Assembly (NCBI RefSeq): GCF_026151205.1
Contig: NC_087077.1
Span: 4,712,001-4,776,000, forward strand
Direction: 5' to 3'
DNA from: Bolinopsis microptera
Lineage: Eukaryota; Ctenophora; Tentaculata; Lobata; Bolinopsidae
Length of the DNA: 64,000 bases
This document shows, one piece after another, positions 1 through 54,300 of this stretch; position 1 is the first letter of the stretch; each line of letters starts with the position of its first letter. The position numbers and the translations under genes are program-made. Below the pieces are notes generated by a model. That model ran no database searches, was not told the origin of the DNA, and saw nothing but the letters and a program-made list of their open reading frames with translations.

Positions 1-32
1 AAACTGGGTGATACAGTCACCAAAAAAAAATA

Positions 33-126
33 CTAAGTATGATAAGTTAATAAATTAAATGTGGTCTATAAAACTACCACTAAGTATAATAGGTCAATAA
101 ATTAAAAGTGGTTTATAAAACTACCA
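33..126 (-). repeat. Two 47-base tandem units in the LINE 3' UTR
   Basis: Two adjacent copies share the motif ATAAATTAAA followed by GTGGT and TATAAAACTACCAC. They differ at a few positions. Short tandem units near the 3' end are common in CR1/L2-type LINEs. Confidence 0.6.
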
Positions 127-262
127 CTGTGGGAACCCCTTCTCCAGTTAAAACATGTCAGTCATGTGCAAAATCAATCAGAATGGTAAGGTGGTAAAAA
201 AGGGAATATCTTTTCGATACATCAATTATATATGCCTCAGATTTAAAAGAATTAGAAGTTAC

Positions 263-3238
263 TTAGTTATCGGCGACTATGATTGCAGTGTAAAATTTGT
301 CATATGAATTGTCGACGGTATAATTAGGGTCTGTTGTTATAGATGATAGTAGCTGTTTCTTATACGAATCACTAAAGCTTTTAACATCGGGCAGATTTCG
401 TAGATCTGTTGGAACATTATTCCAACATTTTGCCCCCAAGTATTGAAAGTTTTTATGTGATGTTGATCTATTGACATAAAGGTTGCAGCTTTCGCCGCTC
501 CTACTACCTCCTGATATGTAACTAAATTTGTTCATAAAGTTTGTAGGACAATTGTCATGGATGATTCTAAACATATAATTTGACAGATGGAGTTGTCGTC
601 TAAGATGGAGTGGTAACCATTTCATGTCTCTATAAACATTAAGGCTGCTCTCTGTTTTTGGAACGTTGAGAGCTATTTTGGCTACCTTTTTGTACAGAGT
701 GTCAAGTTCAGCAAGTTTTGTCTTGCCAGCTCTACAATAGATCGTGTCTAAATAATCGAATTGTGGCAACATGAGTGCATTGGCAAACATTTTCCTATAT
801 TTAATGGGTAGCAGTGCTTTACTTCTATACATGGCACCAATTCTCTTCATGACCTTCCTAATAATATAATCTACATGGCTTTTGAAGTTTAATTTACTAT
901 CTAGAATGAGGCCAAGATATTTTGTCTCTTTGCACTCCTTGATTGTGAAAGTTACCTCATTACAATCAATGGTTATTTCATCATGTTGGTCAACAGAATC
1001 AAACAATAGGAATTCAGTCTTCTTTTCATTGAGTGATAATTTATTAACACTGAGCCATTTAAAGATTGTCATAAGTTCTATTTTCATGTTTATAAATGTG
1101 CTTCTGCAGGTTTGATCAAAGAATAGTGCACCATCATCTGCAAATAGATAGGGCTTAGATAGGTTACAGGCATAAATGATGTCATTTATGAAGATACTAA
1201 ATAATATAGGCCCAATGATGCTTCCTTGTGGTACACCACTCAGAACTTCTAAAAATGAGCTTAGATTGCCATTGATCCTAGTGCATTGATATCTACAAGA
1301 TAAGAAGTTCTTAAACCAGGTTAAAGCAATGCCACCAATTCCATAATATGCCAATTTTTGAAGCAATATTTCATGATTCACTGTGTCAAAGGCCTTCTTA
1401 AGATCAAGAAAGATGATTCCTGGTTTATAAGACTTAGATTTACTCATATATATTTCGTCCATCAGATCGTACATCAGATAAGTTGTGGAGTGATTTTTCC
1501 GAAAGCCATATTGATGCCGGATGAAAAGTTTGTTCTCTTCCATGTAATCAGTGAGTTGCTTGCCGACAAAGTATTCTATAAGTTTTCCTACAAGTGGAAG
1601 GATGGATATTGGCCTGTAATTATTAGGATCATCTTTCATTCCTGCCTTATGGATGGGAGTTACTCTAGCTTTTTTACAAAGGGTTGGTACAACACCTGTA
1701 TTAAGGCTCAGATTGACAATGTGGGTCAGTGGCTCAACTATGTGTGGTACAGCTTGCTTAAGTAAAAATAGAGGCACATTGTCATATGAGGCCTTGTCAT
1801 TCTTGAGCGTTTCGACATACATTAGGATATCAGTTTCATTTATTTCTTGGAATCTATCAAATGAGATATTAGAAGTTCTAGGAGGTAAAAAATCAGTAAA
1901 ACTAACTCTTTCAATATTGGGGGCCTGATTTTGTAATCTTGATCCAACATTTGCAAAATGAAAGTTAAATAGCTCAGGATCATTCTCATTGATAGTTTGA
2001 CAATTAGTTGTACCAGGGGTCATATTTGATGCCAGTTTGATAGTTTTCCATATCCCTTTAAGATCATTCTTGGCACTTTTAACTTGTAGATCATCGATTA
2101 CATTAGCCTTTTTGCAGGTTTTAGCTAATTTATTTCTAATATTTCTCTGAATCTTGTAGCAATCCCAGGCCTCATTACACTTTATACATTTGCTACATGT
2201 ACCACATTTATTGCAATTTCCATTGTCTCTCTTATCCTTCTTTTTACGGAATTTCTTTAGAAGAAAATGTGTATGATTAATGGCATATAAAAGTTCAGTA
2301 GAAGGTTTATGTATGAACTTTTCATGCCTTTCTATGGTCTTGCAAGGGAAGAAGGTTGCATATGCCTGTTCAATATGATGACAAAGGCCAGCTGTGATAG
2401 CTTCAACATCTGTACTTTCCAATAGTGGACTGTAATCAGAACAGGTGTCTAGATAGTCTAAGAATTGTTTAACATTACGTTTACAATGATTTCTAATTTC
2501 AACCTTATCAAATTTAGGAGCTATAGGTACTTTACAATCTATCTCACACATAATAGCTTGATGATCTCCAATACGTTCATCAAGAACAGAAGATTGGACA
2601 AAATCTGCATAACAGTTAGTGAATATTACATCAATAGTAGTCTGGGTAACATTGTCTCCACGTTTAGCAACTCTAGTTATCCCTTGAATGGTTTGAACTA
2701 GATTGTAACATCTCAAGGTCATATCTAATTTTTTGTACTGGGTGGATGAGATATTATTCTGGTCAATGTTTATATCCCCAATCCAGATAACCTTTTTCCC
2801 ATTCAATTTTTTCATGCAAAAATGAATGTATTCAATAAAGTTATCAACACTGCAATAATTTCCAGAGCGATAGAAGCAGCAAACATTGATCTTGCTATTC
2901 TTAAGCTTCACCCATAATGCTTCAATGTTATCAAGCTTACTATCCATAACTAATTCTGTGTAAGCTAGTTTTTTGTTTATCATTAAGCCATAACCACCCC
3001 TAGAACTGTTTGGCCTGTCGCATCGCATAAGGTTGAAGGAGGAAGGAATATTTATGGTGTCTGTGTCAATAGTATCATTAAGATTCATCTCATTTAGGGA
3101 AAGTATGTCTAATTTATGATCTCTAATAAGTTGGGAAAGTTCATTACTTTTAGCTAAATTGAGAAGCCCTCCTTGAATGTTACAATGACCAATGCAGAGG
3201 TTGTGAAACCTATCAGCTGCATTATTAAAATTTGTCAT
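263..3238 (-). CDS. LINE ORF2: APE endonuclease plus reverse transcriptase
   Basis: This is a 991-residue ORF2 of a non-LTR retrotransposon, intact from start to stop. Residues 13-235 form an APE-type endonuclease, which nicks target DNA to prime reverse transcription. The visible catalytic motifs are LNEM (Glu50), IGDINID (Asp155, Asn157) and IGDHQ (Asp225, His226). Residues about 515-790 form the reverse transcriptase, with YRPIS, FLDLKKAFD (Asp612), SGVPQGS and the FADD active site (Asp701, Asp702). No RNase H domain follows. Length and layout fit the CR1/L2/Jockey group, but the clade cannot be fixed by eye. Between the two enzymes, residues 342-360 carry five cysteines at CxxC spacing plus Cys360, a possible zinc-binding region. 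ORF1 lies 156 bases upstream in the element's own direction. The absence of stops or frameshifts suggests a recent copy. Confidence 0.95.
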   Translation of the reverse strand: MTNFNNAADRFHNLCIGHCNIQGGLLNLAKSNELSQLIRDHKLDILSLNEMNLNDTIDTDTINIPSSFNLMRCDRPNSSRGGYGLMINKKLAYTELVMDSKLDNIEALWVKLKNSKINVCCFYRSGNYCSVDNFIEYIHFCMKKLNGKKVIWIGDINIDQNNISSTQYKKLDMTLRCYNLVQTIQGITRVAKRGDNVTQTTIDVIFTNCYADFVQSSVLDERIGDHQAIMCEIDCKVPIAPKFDKVEIRNHCKRNVKQFLDYLDTCSDYSPLLESTDVEAITAGLCHHIEQAYATFFPCKTIERHEKFIHKPSTELLYAINHTHFLLKKFRKKKDKRDNGNCNKCGTCSKCIKCNEAWDCYKIQRNIRNKLAKTCKKANVIDDLQVKSAKNDLKGIWKTIKLASNMTPGTTNCQTINENDPELFNFHFANVGSRLQNQAPNIERVSFTDFLPPRTSNISFDRFQEINETDILMYVETLKNDKASYDNVPLFLLKQAVPHIVEPLTHIVNLSLNTGVVPTLCKKARVTPIHKAGMKDDPNNYRPISILPLVGKLIEYFVGKQLTDYMEENKLFIRHQYGFRKNHSTTYLMYDLMDEIYMSKSKSYKPGIIFLDLKKAFDTVNHEILLQKLAYYGIGGIALTWFKNFLSCRYQCTRINGNLSSFLEVLSGVPQGSIIGPILFSIFINDIIYACNLSKPYLFADDGALFFDQTCRSTFINMKIELMTIFKWLSVNKLSLNEKKTEFLLFDSVDQHDEITIDCNEVTFTIKECKETKYLGLILDSKLNFKSHVDYIIRKVMKRIGAMYRSKALLPIKYRKMFANALMLPQFDYLDTIYCRAGKTKLAELDTLYKKVAKIALNVPKTESSLNVYRDMKWLPLHLRRQLHLSNYMFRIIHDNCPTNFMNKFSYISGGSRSGESCNLYVNRSTSHKNFQYLGAKCWNNVPTDLRNLPDVKSFSDSYKKQLLSSITTDPNYTVDNSYDKFYTAIIVADN

Positions 3239-3394
3239 CTTGTGAATCTTATTAATTCACAATGGAATGAATAAAAGTTGTAAAGTTGTGTTTAAACTAA
3301 AAAAACAGAATAAAAGCAGGTTGTATTTGTCTGGATGTCGTACTGTAAAAATAAAACTGATGGTAGGAGTGTTATGTCAGTATTCAGCAGTATT

Positions 3395-5047
3395 CTAATG
3401 GTGTGCATGATACTTCAAGTGCCTTGCTAATTTAACTATGCCATAATCATTGAGATGGACATTATCCTCTCCATAACTACTAAAAAATGACGATTTTCTA
3501 AAGCCTTTCTTATCACTAAACAAGAAACGATTTGTCTCGGTTGAGAGCAGTTTTACATAGGTGTATTTTCTTTGCAGATTTGATATACACTCATTGATAT
3601 CAGTTATAACCTTGTTTCTGGAGAAACTCTCCCGAGGTAATAAGTTAACAATTTTAATATCAGCTCCAGGTGCCCACTTGTGAAGGAAAAGTACAAGTTT
3701 TTCAATACAATTGTTTGTAAAGTCAAGAGCTCTAGCATCACCAGAAAAACTATCAGGGCACAGAAGTTTAGTCCTCATGTTGCGAGGGCTGTTCAGGATA
3801 GAGTCCACGTCATTTGTACCACACATAAGTACAATGCTTTTCACATTATTGGTATTAAGAGTGTCTTTTCTTACATCTGATTGAAACCGTTCATTGATTG
3901 CATTGGCTGTGGCACCAGGGTAGCTGAATACATGTGCCTCATGATGTTTGGACGATAGCTTTTCTCCCTCTAATTTGGAGAACATACTAGAGCTAATGTA
4001 GACACACGAAGATTTACCAGAATGTTCTATTGATCTAGTCTTAGGGGCCGAGGGTTCGGTGTTCTTAACTTGACTGGAAACATCAGACAGAGTAGATAAG
4101 GTTGCGCTGCCATCAATTAGGCGCAGAGTAATGCTTATTCTCATGGTTTCAGACTTGTCCTGGATGAGGCTGTGTTCAAAGCTGGTCTGGGATTGTCTGG
4201 TCATATTCATTATGTCACCATGGGAGAGGGTGAGGTCAGCAATATGAGCTCTAAGTTTGGATCTGAAGCTTAGGACTCTAGTAGCCCCTAAAGAGATGGT
4301 GGAGATCATGGAGCCTGGTGAAATTGACCTCTCGTCATCCGAGTGAAAGGGAATTCCTTGCTGACCATTTCTATACTTGGTAATCATAGCACTATTGAAT
4401 TTCAATTTTGGGAACTGTGAGCGTAAGCGTTCTAAAATAGACTTTAGGTATGGATTGTCTGCTACTGGCCTTGTGTTATGAAAGCCTCCATTGTAAGCGT
4501 AGGGAAAGTCCCCGTAATATGCAACTGCCCTATTCTCAAACTTATGAGTATAGTGGGTTTCTATATCTAACTTGGCAGTGTCAACAAACTGAAAAACTCC
4601 TCGACTCAAATCTTGGTATGGATTGATAGAGTTGGTCACATCATTGTCACCATTTACAGAGTGTTTGGGATTTTCCAAATTGATAATTTCTGCTGAATGT
4701 TCACTGTCTTCTGCTAATTTGGATAGCTCTTGGGTTAACTCAGAAACAAGATGCGAGGATGACCTATTACTGAGGGGAACATTGATAGACTGTTCACAGT
4801 GATCAGGTACCTGGGGCAACACAGGGATAAGTGAACCATCGCTGAGGGGAACTTTGAGTGCACTGTCACTTTCTGATAATTGTTTATAGAGAAAAGAAAT
4901 TTGCCGACGAAGACTATCATTCTCTCTTAATAGAGTTAAACAATTTGAACATTTATCAGTAGGACAAGAGCCGTTGCTGGGGAATTTAACAGAATTCCCT
5001 CGATATCTCAGATTGTAATGTCTTGAGCCAACTGGTATTCTAGACAT
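3395..5047 (-). CDS. LINE ORF1 with AlkB dioxygenase and SGNH esterase domains
   Basis: This 550-residue ORF1 precedes the endonuclease/RT ORF of the same element. Residues 33-60 hold a CxxC pair and a short heptad-like stretch that may be a coiled coil. Residues about 150-312 match the AlkB family of 2-oxoglutarate/Fe(II) dioxygenases, which demethylate alkylated nucleic acid. The iron ligands are visible as HSD (His235, Asp237) and His292, and the RxxxxxR signature is Arg303 to Arg309. Residues about 345-548 look like an SGNH hydrolase: serine-rich block at 352-354, Gly378 in YPGA, GTND (Asn412) and DNVH (Asp528, His531). Esterase-type ORF1 proteins are known in CR1/L2-like LINEs. The added AlkB domain is the odd part. 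Both enzyme signatures look complete, so activity is plausible but is inferred. Confidence 0.9.
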   Translation of the reverse strand: MSRIPVGSRHYNLRYRGNSVKFPSNGSCPTDKCSNCLTLLRENDSLRRQISFLYKQLSESDSALKVPLSDGSLIPVLPQVPDHCEQSINVPLSNRSSSHLVSELTQELSKLAEDSEHSAEIINLENPKHSVNGDNDVTNSINPYQDLSRGVFQFVDTAKLDIETHYTHKFENRAVAYYGDFPYAYNGGFHNTRPVADNPYLKSILERLRSQFPKLKFNSAMITKYRNGQQGIPFHSDDERSISPGSMISTISLGATRVLSFRSKLRAHIADLTLSHGDIMNMTRQSQTSFEHSLIQDKSETMRISITLRLIDGSATLSTLSDVSSQVKNTEPSAPKTRSIEHSGKSSCVYISSSMFSKLEGEKLSSKHHEAHVFSYPGATANAINERFQSDVRKDTLNTNNVKSIVLMCGTNDVDSILNSPRNMRTKLLCPDSFSGDARALDFTNNCIEKLVLFLHKWAPGADIKIVNLLPRESFSRNKVITDINECISNLQRKYTYVKLLSTETNRFLFSDKKGFRKSSFFSSYGEDNVHLNDYGIVKLARHLKYHAHH

Positions 5048-5869
5048 AGTTTATCACAAAAAGATGCTACTGTTCGAAATTTAGTTAATGATTACAGTAC
5101 CTTTGTAGCACTCCGGAGGATAAGGATAAGTGATGTCTGATAATCTTTAGGTGATAGATGGGAGTAAACTGCTTTAAAAACCGATGTCTGATAGTCCTTA
5201 GGATGTCTTTAAGATAACTTTATCGTGCAACAACCATTTACATTGACATACAACCTGTAATGGTCGTTACATTTACCGAGGCATTAGTTCCCACTGGGGG
5301 TCCTCAATAAATGTAATAGATTTGTAGTGTTGTAATTAGTTTAAAACTAAAAACGATAGATGGGTCTCATGTTTGGTCATTGGTGTCCACCTTTTTTCCT
5401 CGGTACCCTCTTAGAGCAATAAAAGTTGTTTTCAACATTGCAAATTTTATCCTCGTTCTCACATGCACTAAATAACATTTAAAATTAAAAGTGTTTTAGT
5501 ATAATGTCTCTGTTGATATGAATAGGGAGTTTGAATAGGTAATAAGTATCATAGCACAGCAACAATCATTTAACAGCACTTGTTCGTCCATTAAAACCAA
5601 ATTATTTGACTTTTTAGAATAAAACCAGCCCACCTCATCATGGTTGCAATTCCTCAAAATTGATCAGTCCATGACGCTTGTTTTAATGTAATAAAGGAAG
5701 GATAAAATTATTATGTCAAATACCCTGTCAGAACTCAAGTTGACTCAGAGGGCTTTATCATTGCGGGTTTAAATAATGGCGGGTTAAAATATGGCGTAGT
5801 TTCCGAAAAACTGCCAAATTTAAACCGCTATAATTAAACGAACTAAGGTAGGTACCCTTGATAGTATAT

Positions 5870-19586: not shown

Positions 19587-22500
19587 TTATCTTTTCATCT
19601 TTCGTTTTTTCTCCCTCTCCTCTTCGGCGAGAATCTTTTTCAGCTCGTCGGCATCTTCCTTCTTTGCTAAACGTGCACTGAAAATTACACGCTATAATAA
19701 AATTCATTCACGTTTAATGGCATCATACTAAAGTATCAATATTAAATACTCATTGCTGTTCATTAAATACAAAAACAGTTGCCTTGTAACTCCAGTCAAT
19801 CGTATAGATTATGGATGTAGAAGTAACCAGTAATAGTGATTATGCAACTAATCCACTAATAGGCTAACTAATAGAAAACTAATAGGCTAACTAATAGGCT
19901 AACTAATAGGCTAACTAATAGGCTAACTAATAGACTAACTAATAGGCTAACTAATAGGCTAACTAATAGACTAACTAATAGGCTAACTAATAGACTAACT
20001 AATAGGCTAACTAATAGGCTAACTAATAGGCTAACTAATAGGCTAACTAATAGGCTAACATACCTTCTAGCCTCCTCCTGAGCAATAGTCCTGTAGTCTG
20101 TCTCCATGTTACGACAATCATCCTCCTCGTCTCTATACTTCCTCTTGTCATACCCAAATATATTCCTGGTGAATAATCCCCAATGCATAAACCATTAATT
20201 AATGTTAATACCTACTTCTTGAACTTTAATATTTCCTTTAATTATACAGTGTTAAAATGTGAATATTTAACGAACCTGACAGCCTTCGACACATCTATGT
20301 CCTCACCATCACTCACAACAAAATCATCCAGGTCGTCGTCCATGTACGGGTTAGCGTGCATCTTCTGAAGAGGAAATGTTAAGAATGCGCCCTTATCTAA
20401 TATCTCCTCTCTCATTAATCTATTATTGATTATTAGAAAACAGTACTTACCTCCTGTCTCTTTAACTATTATAATTCAGATATTATACTTTTAAGTTAAC
20501 AAGACAGGTACATTTTGTTCCAATCGTTCAAATTCATTCATAATCAATTGATTGATCTGATAGTCTAAATCTGCCCATAATAAGCTTGCCACTAGTGACT
20601 TTAACTTTGAAATAGACGACGGCATTTGTAGAAAGAAAACCAAAATTTGCAGTTACATCAAAGTTATTTCAAAATTCAAATTAGGTCAAAACACTTTAAA
20701 AAATGCCTGAACAAGCATATTTTTTGTTAAAAAAGACTACCTCTAAAATGTATTCCTGCTTTAGATACTAATCTCAATGAGTGTAACCTCAACTCTTGTT
20801 GAATGTTTATTTACAGTTCCTATTGCTCAAGCGGAGTCCCTGTTGTCTCCCTCTTTATAAAAAAAGCAAACACAGATGTAATGATCAACACACCTTGCAT
20901 TACAACTATAACAAATACAGGATTCTCCTCGTACGCATAATGTATGGCAAAGGAAGCAGTAATACTTGAGATGCTGTAGCACCCGCCTAGAATACAATTA
21001 GTGAAAGACCTGACTGATGTAGGAAAAGATTCGCCAGCAATTACAAATATTAACCAGCTCATAACGGCTAAAGCTCCCCTGGTGATTAACAAAACGGTCA
21101 AGATAAAGTCTGTGCCCACACAAATGTAAAGTAGGGATAACAACAATGTGGGAAATACAGAGGTGAAAATAGTGAGTTTTATTCTCCCAATCCAGTTAAC
21201 GAAGAGTAGAGCTAGAAGAATACTGAAGGGTTCAGCTAGACCAAGAACGCCGAGATCAAACAGGACGGCGTTATCAAATGTGCAAGACTCCTCCTCTGTA
21301 TAGGTACTTGAAGAACAATATCCCTCATTCATGAAGCGAGGGGCCGCATAAAGTATGCACATGTAAGCAAACTGACCGGTAAAATTCACACATACCAGGA
21401 TCCAGAAATCAGAAGCATAGCCTGTTTCTTGTATTACTTGATAGCTCTGACAAAACGTACTGATCTCTTGTTCAGCATGGGGATCCTCAGTTATCCTCAG
21501 ATTCTCAGTTTGTTCTCCGGTACAATTTAATTTGGACAAAATCTCTATAGTTTTCAGAGCCCCACTTACTTTCCCAACTTGAACATCGTGTCTTGGAGAT
21601 TCTCGGATCAAGATGAGTATGATCAAGAAAGGAGAACAGAACAAAGCTAGGGCTATAAGAAACCCTCGCCACCCAAGTGGCTCTATCGTTACGTACGCCA
21701 GTATGCTACTAAAAGCAGTTCCAATCCCCCAACCCAGACCATTGGAAGCCAGTCCGAGAGCTCTGTATTTAGTAGTTGGAATTTCAGCGGAGTATGCAAT
21801 GGCAGGGCCGAACCCGATACCAGAGCTCGCTCCGATCACAGCCCTGCAGATAAGGAGTTGCCACAATTGCGTGCACATACCTGACAGAACCCCTGCTAAC
21901 ATGGCAACTAGAGTTGTGACTATCAGTACTGGCCTTCTTCCGAGAGTGTCTCCAAGATTTGAGAAACAAATGCTAAAGATTGAAGAGAAGACCATGCCAG
22001 TTACTTGCAGGACAGACATTGAAAATGTTGACATTTCCCACTCACAGCGCACCATCAGACTGACTATTGTCATTACTGATATTTCAGCACCGACCGTTAT
22101 CATGACTCCATAGGGCCCCAAAGCGTACAGAATCGTCCCAAAACCACAACCAACACGTTCTATGGCCTCTCCAACAGTCACAAACTCGGTGGAGGTGGAG
22201 GTAGCAGGAGTGTTTGCTGTTGCTGTGAGGCGGGTTTTCTCGCTTTCTTTTGATTTCAGTTCCATAACAGTCTGAACTATAACCTTAAACATGTAGGTAA
22301 CGTTCAGATATTTTAATTGACTTGTTAATAACGAATAAACATTAAGATTAACCAGATTTTCTCTGACAAGTGTCGTGCATTACAGCCAGAGAACTTTAAA
22401 AGAATTTTTCTAGTTTTAACATAATATGTGATAGAGCTGCTGGAGACGACCGTCGAACAAGTTGGGGAAAACCGTATAAAAATCTGACATTGCGTTCCTG

Positions 22501-34500: not shown

Positions 34501-36797
34501 GCTTAAAATATAAATAGACACTTATTATCTATGTTTCAGCGAAAAAATGTTTTCTCACCGATATGAATTGTCGATTTTTCCTTCATAACTTACACAAGAA
34601 GCTCAGACAAATTTGGGATCAAATAGACTGTAGACCTGACTTAAGTAACATATAGTAAGTACTAAGTAAAGTAAGTACTAAGTAAAGTAAGTACTAAGTA
34701 AAGTAAGTACTAAGTAAAGTAAGTACTAAGTAAAGTAAGTACTAAGTAAAGTAAGTACTAAGTAAAGTAAGTACTAAGTAAAGTAAGTACTAAGTAAAGT
34801 AAGTACTAAGTAAAGTAAGTACTAAGTAAAGTAAGTACTAAGTAAAGTAAGTACTAAGTAAAGTAAGTACTAAGTAAAGTAAGTACTAAGTAAAGTAAGT
34901 ACTAAGTAAAGTAAGTACTAAGTAAAGTAAGTACCAAGTAAAGTAAGTACTAAGTAAAGTAAGAACAAAAAAAAGTAAGTACTAAGTAAAGTAAGTACTA
35001 AGAAAAGTAAGTACTAAGTAAAGTAAGTACTAAGTAAGTAACTCCAGACTCAACGCTTACCGTTTCCTATCGTGATAAGCCGACTCCTCGATGTCCAGTA
35101 GTTTAGATGCGCTAGAGGAACTTGTTCGTTTCTTAGTTTTCTCAGGTGTACTAGCTTTACTTGGAGACCCTGTAAACAACACGTATAATAAAACCGCTAA
35201 AAGCTGGTCGCCTAAAGCACAAAACCCCAATATAATAACACTAAAAGCTCGAAACATTGAAAGGCAAACTTTTCGTGGATCTGGTTATGTAAACCATGAA
35301 GCATAAAGTATAGAAAATTATGGAGAAGAAAATATAAACGCAAGAAATAACCTCGATTGTCCATGCTCTTAGACAAGGACATGGCAACTTTTTTCGCATC
35401 TTCCCTAATTTTCGCCATCAGTTTCTCCTTATCCCGATCCTTCATACCACGTTTGTGCTCTTCTCGTCTCCTCCAAATGTCATCCTTCTTTCGCTCATCG
35501 CGTCTCCTTTTTTTCTCATCAACTTCCCGCTGGCGACGTTTGAAAATGTCATCATCGTCGTCTATAAAGTCTCCGAACCTCTCTCCTCCTTTCCCCTTAC
35601 CACACCGCTTCTTCTCTCTTTCCTCCTCTCTTTTGTTCTCCTGTTCGTGACGCACTGCATCTCGTTTTGCTTGTTGTTCTGCTTCCATCTTAGCCTTCCT
35701 TTCTTGAGCTTCCTGTTAATAAGGCAAAACATTGAAAGAGTGAAAATGCAAAACATTGGAAATGTGAAAATACCCCTATTAGCTAATGTAACTAGTAATA
35801 ATAATAATAATAAATTGAAATTTAATAACACCGCTTTTAAGATAAATCTTATACTCAGCAGTGTTTGAACTAGTCATCCCAGAAAATATCATGAATACTG
35901 AGCTAAAAAATAACAGTAGTAAATAGGCTTAGTAAAGAAACTGAAGTTCTTATTTACTATTTAGGCTTGTGTTTTGCAAAATATTAAAAATTCGAGCGTT
36001 TAATTTTGACCTTGCATATTTGGTCGAGTCTGTCCATCTTCTCCTGCTCCTCTATCAGTTTCCGCTCGTGTTCAGCCATCTCGTGTTCCATCCTTGCTAG
36101 CTTCTCTCGTTCTTGTCTTCCGAATCGTTCTGAGGAATTCAAAGAATCTGTTACTGTTAGAATTCATTTGAAGGGACTGTCAAACTTCGACTGACAATTT
36201 GATCCCCAAAATGGCGAAACTAAATAAGAATGGTTGAGATTATCTGCTATATATTTTACATTATGACCGGTATTAATTTTCACGAACAGTTACAATTTCC
36301 AAAGAAACTTTCGTATATTTAATCGATAGTTAATACTTTATAGATTATCTCACCTTCTTCAGCGATCTTTCTTCGTTTCTCCTCCTCTTGCTTGCGGACC
36401 AGTTCAGTTCTGAGTTTCTGTGTAGATCGAGCTGGCTCCAGGTTGCAGGGTTTCTTTGGTTTCTGAGGAATTTAAAGCTAGAACAGCTTGTTCTTGCATA
36501 ACTCAAGTGAAGTACTTAATAACTCAAAAATATCTGCTTTAATTACGATCTTACAAATTTACTAGCTATTGATCACTGTTAAAATGCACAGTCAACACAT
36601 CAGATCATCAGATGGTATTAGCAGAGTAATGCCCCAGGGTATAACTTTATTATTTTCCATAAATAACCAATAATTAGCAACTTTAACAATACAAGGAGTG
36701 CCTGAGGGAGGGGGTAATTGAGAGTAAAGAGAAAATATACCTTTTTTACTTGCTCTTCATTTGCACGAGCTTGAGCCATCAGTGCATCGAAATCCAT
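19587..36797 (-). CDS. SPTY2D1: SPT2/SPTY2D1-like histone chaperone with YSP-repeat exon
   Basis: Eighteen minus-strand exons join in phase to 4233 bases (1410 residues): 36797-36741, 36462-36354, 36129-36011, 35712-35352, 35169-35061, 33554-33338, 33201-33112, 32652-30907, 30263-30060, 29950-29765, 29613-29505, 29334-29302, 29023-28784, 28636-28488, 28350-28129, 20364-20276, 20165-20064, 19677-19587. SPT2 proteins bind histones H3-H4 during transcription. The start MDFDALMAQA and the C-terminus (NIFGYDKRKYRDEEDD, then EEARR/SARLAKKEDADELKK) are typical of the family. The amphipathic start motif recurs as TFEEIMAMAKLK and SFEELMMLAQ. The middle is highly charged coiled coil. The 1746-base exon encodes about twenty Tyr-Ser/Thr-Pro motifs, which I do not know from other SPT2 proteins. 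The 30907/30263 junction is the weakest; two adjacent genes remain possible. Confidence 0.8.
19863..20057 (+). repeat. 12-bp minisatellite beside a splice donor
   Basis: About sixteen units of TAATAGGCTAAC, with a few TAATAGACTAAC variants, fill the last intron of the SPT2-like gene. The array begins only a few bases inside the donor at 20063/20062. Read on the minus strand it is open and encodes a LLVS repeat, so an unspliced message would be translated through it. Confidence 0.95.
20806..20811 (-). terminator. Candidate polyadenylation signal of the transporter
   Basis: AATAAA on the minus strand starts 9 bases after the TAG stop of the SVOP-like gene. If used, the 3' UTR would be very short. 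Confidence 0.4.
20820..22292 (-). CDS. SVOP-like major facilitator transporter, intronless
   Basis: A 490-residue single-exon MFS protein. VGEAIERVGCGFG at residues 40-52 and the CEWEM segment match the SVOP/SV2-related branch of organic-solute transporters. LGDTLGRRPVLI (about 113-124) is the MFS loop 2-3 signature, and ESPR follows TM6. About twelve hydrophobic segments can be traced, with a cysteine-bearing extracellular loop around YCSSSTYTEEESC. Length is normal for the family. The substrate cannot be told. The gene lies wholly inside the 7.8-kb intron of the SPT2-like gene on the same strand. The lack of introns in an intron-rich region suggests origin by retroposition. AATAAA (minus strand, 20811 to 20806) follows the stop by 9 bases. 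Confidence 0.9.
   Translation of the reverse strand: MFKVIVQTVMELKSKESEKTRLTATANTPATSTSTEFVTVGEAIERVGCGFGTILYALGPYGVMITVGAEISVMTIVSLMVRCEWEMSTFSMSVLQVTGMVFSSIFSICFSNLGDTLGRRPVLIVTTLVAMLAGVLSGMCTQLWQLLICRAVIGASSGIGFGPAIAYSAEIPTTKYRALGLASNGLGWGIGTAFSSILAYVTIEPLGWRGFLIALALFCSPFLIILILIRESPRHDVQVGKVSGALKTIEILSKLNCTGEQTENLRITEDPHAEQEISTFCQSYQVIQETGYASDFWILVCVNFTGQFAYMCILYAAPRFMNEGYCSSSTYTEEESCTFDNAVLFDLGVLGLAEPFSILLALLFVNWIGRIKLTIFTSVFPTLLLSLLYICVGTDFILTVLLITRGALAVMSWLIFVIAGESFPTSVRSFTNCILGGCYSISSITASFAIHYAYEENPVFVIVVMQGVLIITSVFAFFIKRETTGTPLEQ
22404..22478 (-). repeat. Interspersed repeat, inverted partner at 26745
   Basis: The sequence around CTAGTTTTAACATAATATGT and ATAGAGCTGCTGGAGAC recurs in opposite orientation at 26745-26812. 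The two copies flank the Ig gene. Confidence 0.7.
22767..22816. repeat. Short inverted repeat around ATTACGTAAT
   Basis: ACATATTACGTAATC and its complement GATTACGTAATATGT are separated by about 20 bases. They would form a small hairpin. Confidence 0.7.
23227..24671 (+). CDS. Secreted/membrane Ig-domain protein
   Basis: The ATG at 23227 begins a signal peptide (MLALTVLWILSVITPGSC) and an unrecognised N-terminal domain. A perfect donor (AACG/GTAAGT, 23620/23621) and an acceptor (CTGTTCAG/ATCC, 23871/23872) join it in phase to a C2-type Ig domain (YTLSC, then DAGDYTC-like NAGDYTCKV), a second cysteine-bearing domain, one membrane helix (about 24467-24535) and a basic tail. If the intron is kept, the first frame stops at 23814 and gives a 195-residue secreted form. 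The last 29 or so residues are read through the antisense of a LINE fragment. Cell-surface recognition or adhesion is likely but not shown. The gene lies in an intron of the SPT2-like gene on the opposite strand. Confidence 0.7.
24575..24945 (-). pseudogene. LINE reverse-transcriptase 3' fragment
   Basis: The minus strand reads the familiar C-terminal end of a LINE polyprotein: LRWFGHVVRMSEERIPNYL, then GKRSRGRPLGK, then DRVHWRG after a frame change. No RT catalytic core is present. It differs from the intact LINE at 263-5047, so it belongs to another family. It overlaps the last codons of the Ig gene on the other strand. Confidence 0.8.
25932..25952 (+). repeat. Poly-G tract (21 G)
   Basis: A 21-base G run is followed by TTTTTTTGTCCGTC, a word also seen beside the poly-G bounded element at 42.7 kb. 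Confidence 0.9.
26745..26812 (+). repeat. Interspersed repeat, inverted partner of 22404
   Basis: This is the reverse complement of the 22404-22478 copy with several mismatches. Target-site duplications were not found. Confidence 0.7.
27465..27537 (+). repeat. Degenerate TTCCAGT microsatellite
   Basis: Units of TTCCAGTRTTCCA and TTCCACTTTTCCA form a short imperfect array in the SPT2-like gene's intron. Confidence 0.8.
30264..30906 (-). other. SPT2-like intron, or boundary between two genes
   Basis: This 643-base gap lies between the YSP exon and the downstream acidic exon. Splicing is in phase 0 on both sides. No promoter or convincing first exon was found here, which favours a single gene, but this is the least certain junction. 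Confidence 0.5.
32722..32770. repeat. Small hairpin GACCTCAATTTGCCTT
   Basis: GACCTCAATTTGCCTT and its near-complement AAGGCAAATTGAGGTTG flank a 10-base loop in the intron just upstream of the YSP exon acceptor. Confidence 0.75.
34649..35038 (+). repeat. 16-bp minisatellite containing GTAAGT and TACTAAG
   Basis: About 24 units of ACTAAGTAAAGTAAGT lie in an intron of the SPT2-like gene. Each unit carries a consensus GTAAGT donor and a TACTAAG branch-point-like word on the plus strand, antisense to the gene. Variants cluster near the 3' end of the array. Confidence 0.95.
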
Positions 36798-51315: not shown

Positions 51316-54300
51316 ATGTTGGTTTCCACAAGATATCAACTGATTATCGTCTTTCTTTTGAGTGGAGCTTGGGAATGTAAGTATGTTTGATTGTTTGGAA
51401 ATATTTTGCATTTTTTGCTACAATTTGTCGTGTTGATATGGTGATCCAATTCCAAACCAAATTTTGTTACTACAAATACAATATTATTCATATTTATCCC
51501 AGGTTTGTCCGATCAGTGGTTATCGCCCATGTCCTCGAGAGGTAGTTATGATTGGATCTCCATTATCAAGGACAACATCAACAAACACGACTACGAAGTT
51601 AAAGCTAATGGTAGTTTTGTCTCTGATCTTACTCTAGATATGAACTTTAGATATAAAGTTGCTTCGGATTGGTTGAGCATTGATTGGAAATGGACATTGA
51701 GCACGTCGGATTCTCTGTTGCACTTTAGAATGGGAGGAAGTGCTAGCTTCATGGAAAGAGAAGGGTGCCTCTTTGAGGGGACCTTTAACATCGCATCATC
51801 CCCCTCCGCAACCCCATCAATATGGAGATTCGGCAAAGACTCCGCCCAACTTTATGTTCTAAGAAATGGAGAAATTGTTGGTAACGTTTCACGAGCGTCA
51901 CTTGCCTGTCTAGATGACGAAGAATGGGGGGAAATAGCAGGGACTTACATTAAGCTTATCAGCGAAAAGAGCGATACAAAAGCTTCATTATTTTATAGGA
52001 GAGGTTTGGACAGTTTTAATTATAGTTATTTTAGTGTGGTACTATTTAAAAGTGCCAGTCATTAAGTCCACAGGATGTGACGTTCGAAATATCACAAACC
52101 GACAGTTACAAAATATATACAAGTTTCCATGCCACAACCTAACCAGCATACTGATATCACAATGATGGAATAATTTCAGTTTGCAGTGTCTCCGAAGATG
52201 CAGACGAGAACTCACTGCAATGCGTAAAGTGTGACGAAGGAACGGTGCATGCAGATGCAGAGGGAACAGAATGTATCGGTCAGTGATACATTAAAGCTTG
52301 TGGTTGAGTGTTTGTATCAAGAGAAAGCTGCAACTTGCACGATAATTCTATAAAAGTGTTATACCTAAACTTATAAACACCGCTGGGATACCGCTATAGA
52401 AAATAAAGAGCGGCGTTATGAATTAGCGTCACTAGACAGCCAGCGAAATTTCACACACAAATCCCGAGTCCAAACTTTACACTGTAATAATAAAAAAGAA
52501 TAATTAGGGTGTGCTCGCGCCATCTGCAGATTGCAGATGATGTGTAGAGTTGTCTTAAAGAGCTTAGCATCAATCTTAGAGTTAACATGATTGTCCGCAA
52601 CTGCCCTGAAATCAAGGAAGAGGGGCAGCAATCTCAACAAACATGAATTTATAACACTTGCAACCATAGTAAATGCACTAACTAATTTATAACACTTGCA
52701 ATATGTTTTCATAAATAAATAATGTGTAGATGGGACCAAATACTTTACACTTTTCAATGGCCTCCAATCGTTTGATCACCCAAGGCCAAATGTATTCTTG
52801 TTTTCAGCTTGCAGGGCTGGGACCTACAAAACGTCCGGCATGACAAATTGTTCACCTTGTCCAGCTTACGCTTTTAGTACAGAAGGTTCCGCTAGCTGCA
52901 CAATCTGTTCAGAAGGAACTGCTGCCAACGAGCAAAGAACGAGCTGCAAAGGTCAGTGAATTGGTTAAATCCAGCTGTAAAACAATATACATTTTCATTA
53001 TGTTTATTAATTCTGATTATTTTTCATTCATTTTTATTAGTTTTCATTAGTTTACATTAGTTTACATTAGTTTACATTAGTTTACATTAGTTTACATTAG
53101 TTTACATTAGTTTACATTAGTTTACATTAGTTTTCATTAGTTTTCATTAGTTTACATTTGTTTTCATTAGTTTCCATTATTTTTCATTCGTGTTCTTTGA
53201 CCGTCGTTTATGAATTCTTATTTTTAGCATGCAGTGCTGGAACGTTTAAAACATTTAATATGACGGAATGTGAGCCGTGTCCAATAAATACGATCAGCCC
53301 GGAGCCCGGAGCGACTAAATGTTCAAAATGTCCTGCAGGAACTTTTCCTGATTTTCCAACGAAATGTGACAGTGAGTAAAACATCGATCCAGATTGAAAG
53401 ATGTTTAAATTCTGCTTAAACCGAGCCAGCCACAAGCTCACAAGGCTTCTCTCAAATAAATCATCACATTAACAGAAGCACGATATAATTAATTGTGTGG
53501 GAACTAGTTGGGTGTAGTTATTGACCCATTCCACCTTTTTAGATTGTGGCGCAGGGACCTACAAAACCTCTGATATGACAACATGTGAACGGTGTCCGGT
53601 AAACACGATCAGTTCAGAAAAGGCGACAAGCTGCACAAAATGTCCTGAAGGAACTGGCGCTCTCTTTAAAAGAACAGAATGTGGTAATTGCACTTAAACA
53701 TGTCACCACATTTATTTAAATGTCCTGATTTAACGTACGCACAATTGATATTGAAACAAAATTTGCATAAACAAAGACGAATATCGTAAAATAAAAAACT
53801 GATTTTCCAATTTCTTTCAATTTTTCACGTTTAGTGTGCTTACTAAAAAATGAGCATGATAAAGTGTACGGAGACTACACCTGGGGAAATGTTATACTAG
53901 GAGAAATGGGGGAACTTCCTTGCTTCCATGATTTCAATGTGAGTCAAATTCAAATTCTAACATATAAATATATCATTGCGGTATTTGAAATAAATAAATT
54001 TAAATCAAAGTTACCGAAGGTATAAGTCTTATAAAAAATCCCGAGCTAACTTTTGACGTGTCTTTCATTAATCTAGCTTGTATTTTTGTATTATTTAGGA
54101 CAAGTTCATGGCCCGCAAATTTTGTTCGGAGGATGGAATTTTCAGCAAGACTGATTATACAGACTGTACCACCTCAGCAACAAACAAACTGGACGACCTT
54201 TCTAAGGTATTTGTTTAAATTAGCGCATGTGCGATTTCATGATTAATAAGGAGTCTAATTTTGCACCAATACCAGAATTTGTAATTTTTCGTGCTGGTTA

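Follow-up and report, generated by a model that had tools for sequence, protein, structure and literature searches.

The first open reading frame (ORF1) of a LINE retrotransposon in the ctenophore Bolinopsis microptera joins an AlkB-type dioxygenase to an SGNH esterase, an identification that is practically certain. The protein it encodes (ORF1p) may use its AlkB domain to clear methyl groups from the Watson-Crick face of the element's nucleic acid; identity and mechanism taken together are given a probability of roughly 0.55. The element lies on the minus strand at one end of the window, as the whole 64,000-nucleotide stretch of DNA analysed here is called. The fusion had been put forward in an original prediction made from the letters of the window, and it is upheld by a profile match, PDB sequence matches, the predicted fold, conservation among relatives and copy number.

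The whole element measures 5,997 bases (a LINE of about 6.0 kb; Table 1). Its 3′ end lies 644 bases to the left of the window, at G000:C6:4711357, and is followed by a TCAATCAA tail and then, outside the window, by the 3′ copy of the target-site duplication ATCTATC. ORF1 stands directly upstream of an intact endonuclease and reverse transcriptase (RT) frame, as originally claimed, with a gap of 156 bases between it and the 991 residues of ORF2. The endonuclease is APE-type, the LINE matches of the RT in PDB are R2 and L1, and the aligned ends of the element carry no long terminal repeats. Across the ORF1 interval the plus strand contains 34 stops. Automatic matching of target-site duplications in the 14 other copies with both edges gave mostly chance-level results, and only L025, which sits inside a tandem repeat, and L037 rose above chance. 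The 3′ UTR holds a 47-base unit repeated 2.1 times (window 32-128). Elsewhere in the window, tandem repeats of 17-24 copies occur at 19855-20059 (12-base unit), 34654-35041 (16-base unit) and 52992-53188 (10-base unit). A single 490-residue open frame on the minus strand (20820-22292) reads like a major-facilitator-type membrane transporter.

Table 1. Features of the element and of one further frame; positions refer to the window unless another source is named.
Feature	Position	Strand	Basis or remark
Element 5′ end	5353	-	limit of similarity among copies
5′ UTR	5048..5353	-	copies compared; position worked out from the similarity limit
Target-site duplication ATCTATC, 5′ copy	5355..5361	-	read by eye; one extra base separates it from the element 5′ end
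ORF1, 550 aa: predicted coiled coil, then AlkB and SGNH esterase	3395..5047	-	ORF reading, profile, model
N-terminal helix 34-61, predicted coiled coil	4865..4948	-	structure model, modest confidence; a CxxC precedes it
AlkB (2OG-Fe(II) dioxygenase) domain, residues 139-313	4109..4633	-	profile, PDB sequence, predicted fold
Iron-ligand motif H235-S236-D237	4337..4345	-	H235 and D237 in 53/53 aligned
Third iron ligand H292	4172..4174	-	53/53 aligned
R303 to R309, RxxxxxR, 2-oxoglutarate binding and AlkB hallmark	4121..4141	-	both 53/53
SGNH esterase domain, residues 343-550	3398..4021	-	profile, predicted fold, conserved residues
ORF2, 991 aa	263..3238	-	endonuclease residues 19-166, reverse transcriptase 531-778
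ORF1 swap point, element positions 2101-2250	3104..3253	-	families A and B turn from different to nearly identical
3′ UTR, part inside the window	1..262	-	copies compared
Giant open frame, 3,388 residues	L051 404-6001 and L052 1-1500 (G000:C10:16874403-16881500)		profile matches

The AlkB profile PF13532 matches ORF1 with 70 bits (curated cut-off 31.2) and is found at E <= 0.01 in all 53 aligned ORF1 proteins. Structure prediction, which had been proposed as a check, confidently yields the double-stranded beta-helix of AlkB enzymes for residues 139-313, and the best structural match of the model is ALKBH2, in a crystal with duplex DNA. The residues first read from the sequence are placed exactly and conserved in the alignment, both for AlkB (HSD at 235-237, His292, Arg303/Arg309) and for SGNH (Gly378, Asn412, Asp528/His531). 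All 53 sequences have H235, D237, H292, R303, R309 and also N218. A chance motif match was rejected on the profile, the PDB sequence and the predicted fold.

Among AlkB enzymes, ALKBH3 scores 85.5 bits, ALKBH2 about 80, Escherichia coli AlkB about 30 and ALKBH5 24, and the stretches HSDDE and FGATR are common to the ORF1 domain and ALKBH3. Judged by these scores, the domain appears nearest to ALKBH2/3, the type that repairs N1-methyl-A and N3-methyl-C, and not to ALKBH5; an ALKBH5-like identity as first choice was rejected, at 24 bits against 85.5 for ALKBH3. The list of the best 50 structural matches is without ALKBH5 and FTO, an absence that carries no weight. F102 of ALKBH2, the duplex wedge residue, aligns with E163 of ORF1 in a mostly polar column (S 19, E 17 and D 7 of 53), a weak hint that the domain may prefer single strands. 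Because ALKBH2/3 is nearer than the m6A eraser ALKBH5, removal of Watson-Crick-face methyl groups is favoured, and an ALKBH2/3-like substrate rather than m6A seems rather probable. If AlkB instead erased m6A from element RNA or host mRNA, the transcripts could escape reader-dependent decay, storage or silencing, as has been proposed for an orchid Gypsy element whose AlkB protein is reported to demethylate m6A RNA in vitro (PMC9289625, in part). For mammals, too, a link between m6A and the activity of L1 is reported (PMC7873242, in part), but the low ALKBH5 score beside those of ALKBH3 and ALKBH2 makes such an eraser unlikely here.

The C-terminal part of ORF1 is predicted to adopt an SGNH fold with a Ser/Gly/Asn/Asp-His set (residues 343-550). 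The esterase serine, which the original prediction did not name, is S354 within YISSSMF; S354 and G378 are found in 52 of 53 aligned proteins, and N412, D528 and H531 in all 53. The sole exception, P0116, has an alignment gap there. The SGNH Pfam score of the window ORF1 falls under the cut-off, and Lipase_GDSL_2 is reached at E 0.01 in only 30 of the 53 relatives. In the first 140 residues (window 4628-5047), a fast-evolving stretch, a CxxC occurs in 39 of 53 aligned proteins. RRM is absent from the Pfam matches of the window ORF1 and from the families listed for the 53 relatives. A section heading of PMC3905857 describes esterase-type ORF1ps as lacking structural RNA-binding domains, so that a domain handling nucleic acid is a plausible addition. 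The same description would suit an AlkB retained as nucleic-acid binder or scaffold, with catalysis irrelevant; a pure binder should however lose some of the five iron and 2-oxoglutarate residues, which stand in 53 of 53 proteins, and this account is very doubtful. A catalytically active domain, presumably an Fe(II)/2-oxoglutarate demethylase, is strongly favoured by the same residues.

Copies of ORF1 abound in the genome. A search of 264.65 Mb on 232 contigs, in which 79 of 815 candidates were scored so that the counts are lower bounds, returned at least 82 ORF1 matches. These include two families of full-length, stop-free copies, family A with at least 17 members (>=99% identity to the window ORF1) and family B with at least 16, which are full-length from residue 2-4 and 64-67% identical to it. 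With their flanks, 33 places were taken: 16 of family A, 14 of family B and three others, including L039, which resembles family B at 98.4% DNA identity. Both frames are open at 12 of 16 A loci (ORF1 of 550 aa, ORF2 of 990-991 aa) and at 7 of 14 B loci (536 and 991 aa), and the AlkB motifs are present in 30 of 30 A and B ORF1s examined. The idea that AlkB had been inserted into this copy only was rejected on these numbers. An insertion specific to the window copy, or an assembly artefact, can be dismissed almost entirely, given at least 82 genomic matches, the motifs in every A and B frame examined and at least 116 database proteins, of which four carry the name Mnemiopsis leidyi. Among 11 A copies the median difference over ORF1-ORF2 is 0.44%; with so many near-identical open copies, the family has moved recently. 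The element is a young, many-copy, recently mobile LINE.

The two families share a nearly identical ORF2. From element position 2251 onward, one A and one B copy (L010 and L025) are 95.4-100% identical per 150-base window, whereas before it they are 37-83% identical. Synonymous divergence between A and B is 0.064 in ORF2 and 1.6 in ORF1. With ORF2 nearly identical and the synonymous sites of ORF1 near saturation, a single ORF2 lineage carries two old ORF1 lineages, and both of these have kept AlkB and SGNH. Reticulate evolution of ORF1 is described for CR1/L2 elements (PMC4120745, in part). The 5′ end sequence also comes in two sorts. Both are present in family A as well as in family B, suggesting additional template switching there.

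Between lineages A and B, the AlkB domains are 84% identical in amino acids and the SGNH domains 67%, with dN/dS of 0.10 and 0.097, respectively, values that are rough because dS is 1.0-2.4 in both domains. The two enzymes appear to evolve equally slowly, and dN/dS near 0.1 indicates purifying selection on each. The linker has a dN/dS of 0.41, and the N-terminal 140 residues are 39% identical, their dS past estimation. Within family A, dN exceeds dS in the N-terminal part of ORF1 when L010 is compared with L023 and L024 (ratios of 1.7 and 2.5, from few sites).

Relatives also occur among database proteins. Among 5.8 billion proteins, of which the best 7,992 candidates were scored, ORF1 has at least 116 matches at identities down to 26%, and 115 of these 116 carry a precomputed PF13532 match. 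The alignment of 53 consists of the window protein and 52 of the 116, relatives that are 23-79% identical to the window ORF1. Invariant positions number 19 of 175 in AlkB and 8 of 208 in SGNH, and there are none in the linker and disordered stretch. Across 1,378 pairs, AlkB and SGNH identities correlate with r 0.81, the expectation if both domains travelled together.

A maximum-likelihood tree with arbitrary root was built from the 53 LINE AlkBs, 23 of 24 stand-alone matches and human ALKBH2 and ALKBH3; P0117, 94% identical to the window AlkB, was omitted. A 99/99 branch divides the tree. The LINE sequences and four short proteins (P0118, P0119, P0121 and P0133) lie on one side of it, and the remaining 19 stand-alone AlkBs lie on the other with ALKBH2 and ALKBH3. 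The best scores are to ALKBH3 and ALKBH2, yet this supported branch sets the LINE AlkBs apart from both of these and from most stand-alone proteins. The sequences labelled LINE do not form a strict single clade (3 changes).

P0116 appears to be an additional ORF1-like architecture, with AlkB (E 3.2e-11), weak PHD-finger (0.027) and SGNH (0.0027) matches and coiled-coil-type matches; the mean pLDDT of its structure model is 55.2. GDSN is present in this protein despite the gap at the serine column. Linkage of ORF1 and ORF2 elsewhere has indirect support from contig sizes. Among the 116 ORF1 and 120 ORF2 matches listed, six pairs lie on contigs of equal size; one contig of 3850 bases was dropped as too small for both proteins, leaving five (834619, 203281, 6406, 6436 and 7050). 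Four equal-size contigs of 3-9 kb, the dropped one included, were observed against about 0.56 by coincidence. A scan of viral_contigs brought up no relative when the complete ORF1 alignment was used, and 7 loci at 28-35% identity when the AlkB part was used.

Other AlkB frames exist in the same genome. PF13532 has at least 151 matches there (150 of 587 candidates scored), those listed being above the Pfam cut-off, and the matching frames come in many size classes, for example 593, 611, 646, 676, 697 and 707 residues. One locus, L050, has a 639-residue ORF1 with AlkB and SGNH (543-2462), 32% identical to that of the window, and a 912-residue RT frame (3012-5750) that begins 85 residues into the window ORF2 and is 50% identical to it. 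It appears to be a second, distant LINE family with the same pair of enzymes in ORF1.

The giant frame of L051 and L052 carries an SGNH match at residues 3-170 (E 6.7e-6; 27.2 bits, under the cut-off of 32.9), AlkB at 481-613 (E 3.7e-21), DUF6570 and then Helitron_like_N (E 7.2e-24). Its profile matches mark it as a Helitron replicase frame, with SGNH preceding AlkB, the reverse of the LINE order. AlkBs of this type occur at 10 places, matching at 73-100% identity along 177 or more of the 180 residues. Six lie in frames of 2,225-3,388 residues, and the domain order was read at L051/L052. This AlkB too is nearest to ALKBH3 (5.3e-11), and in a second tree it falls on the LINE side (98/85), a placement that is unsure because of its very long branch.

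Helitrons transpose by a rolling-circle mechanism via single-stranded DNA, and no RNA intermediate is known for them. The presence of AlkB and SGNH in such a frame weakens any explanation that relies solely on an RNA template; single-stranded DNA or host RNA fits it at least as well. In the LINE, action of AlkB on DNA, be it single-stranded cDNA, the insertion-site target or a host DNA mark, could keep a fresh copy from being damaged or silenced. That ALKBH2 with duplex DNA is the best structural match speaks for this account, as does the Helitron frame, but ORF1 proteins are mostly regarded as RNA-binding, and it is rather unlikely. AlkB and SGNH might also be, as a tentative possibility, a two-enzyme module that unrelated transposons of an early-diverging animal lineage carry in LINE ORF1s and Helitron replicases against a shared host defence or chemical block, for example methylation of single-stranded DNA or of transcripts.

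The mechanism preferred for the LINE begins with the N-terminal coiled coil, through which ORF1p would multimerise and travel with the element's nucleic acid. In this complex, AlkB with Fe(II), oxygen and 2-oxoglutarate would strip N1-methyl-A and N3-methyl-C from single-stranded nucleic acid, either the template RNA ahead of its target-primed reverse transcription or the new cDNA strand, or both. As these methyl groups block polymerases, their removal would clear the path ahead of the element's own RT. The esterase may serve to target membranes or lipids, a role already suggested for ZfL2-1, and AlkB may also supply nucleic-acid binding. Action on the element's own nucleic acid, and not on host RNA or DNA, is mildly favoured, and an ORF1p that clears RT blocks from the RNA it accompanies is the simplest account. 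There is a laboratory counterpart: AlkB is applied ahead of sequencing by reverse transcription to clear m1A, m3C and m1G (PMC11417395, in part).

The conservation of both active sites in relatives suggests that the element changes its own or host nucleic-acid chemistry. An active AlkB would mean that a LINE brings along a nucleic-acid demethylase, housed in ORF1, which is the less understood LINE protein and would gain a second assayable enzyme activity. Conflict over chemical marks or damage on retrotransposon nucleic acid could then be tested directly in an animal outside the Bilateria, and the enzyme type used in laboratories against RT-blocking methyl groups would have a natural RT partner. 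The Helitron parallel would indicate a pressure common to very different elements.

An AlkB in a LINE ORF1 was not found in the mostly open-access literature searched, and an earlier Repbase entry may exist. The nearest published case found is the AlkB ORF of Ty3/Gypsy elements in Phalaenopsis orchids, likewise retrotransposons with an AlkB-family demethylase (PMC9289625, in part). There, a plant LTR element has a separate AlkB ORF, kin to RNA demethylases and with demonstrated m6A activity, whereas the element described here is non-LTR, belongs to an animal and carries an ALKBH2/3-like AlkB fused to an esterase in ORF1. Human ALKBH2 and ALKBH3 are stand-alone host repair enzymes, 25-30% identical to the ORF1 domain. 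The AlkBs of plant RNA viruses (beta-flexiviruses, closteroviruses) match in fold and likewise belong to an RNA-based replicon, but they are part of the viral replicase and the top named viral matches reach 15-23% identity. In insects, LINEs have likewise captured an enzyme domain, sometimes inside ORF1 (PMC5563155, in part), but this is an SF1 helicase, and 'alkb' is absent from the main text of that paper. Similar in overall plan is ZfL2-1 of zebrafish, with the esterase-type (type IV) ORF1 of CR1/L2 LINEs: it shares the SGNH set and the downstream ORF2, and it has an N-terminal coiled coil, which in the present element is predicted with modest confidence (PMC3905857 and PMC4120745, each in part). 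Within the Jockey superfamily, esterase ORF1s are placed only in vertebrate subgroups by the relevant part of PMC4120745. AlkB is absent from these esterase-type ORF1s, and neither 'alkb' nor 'oxygenase' occurs in the main texts of PMC3905857 and PMC4120745. With the orchid Gypsy as the nearest case in the literature searched, the element is accordingly best described as an esterase-type LINE to which an old, conserved AlkB enzyme has been added.
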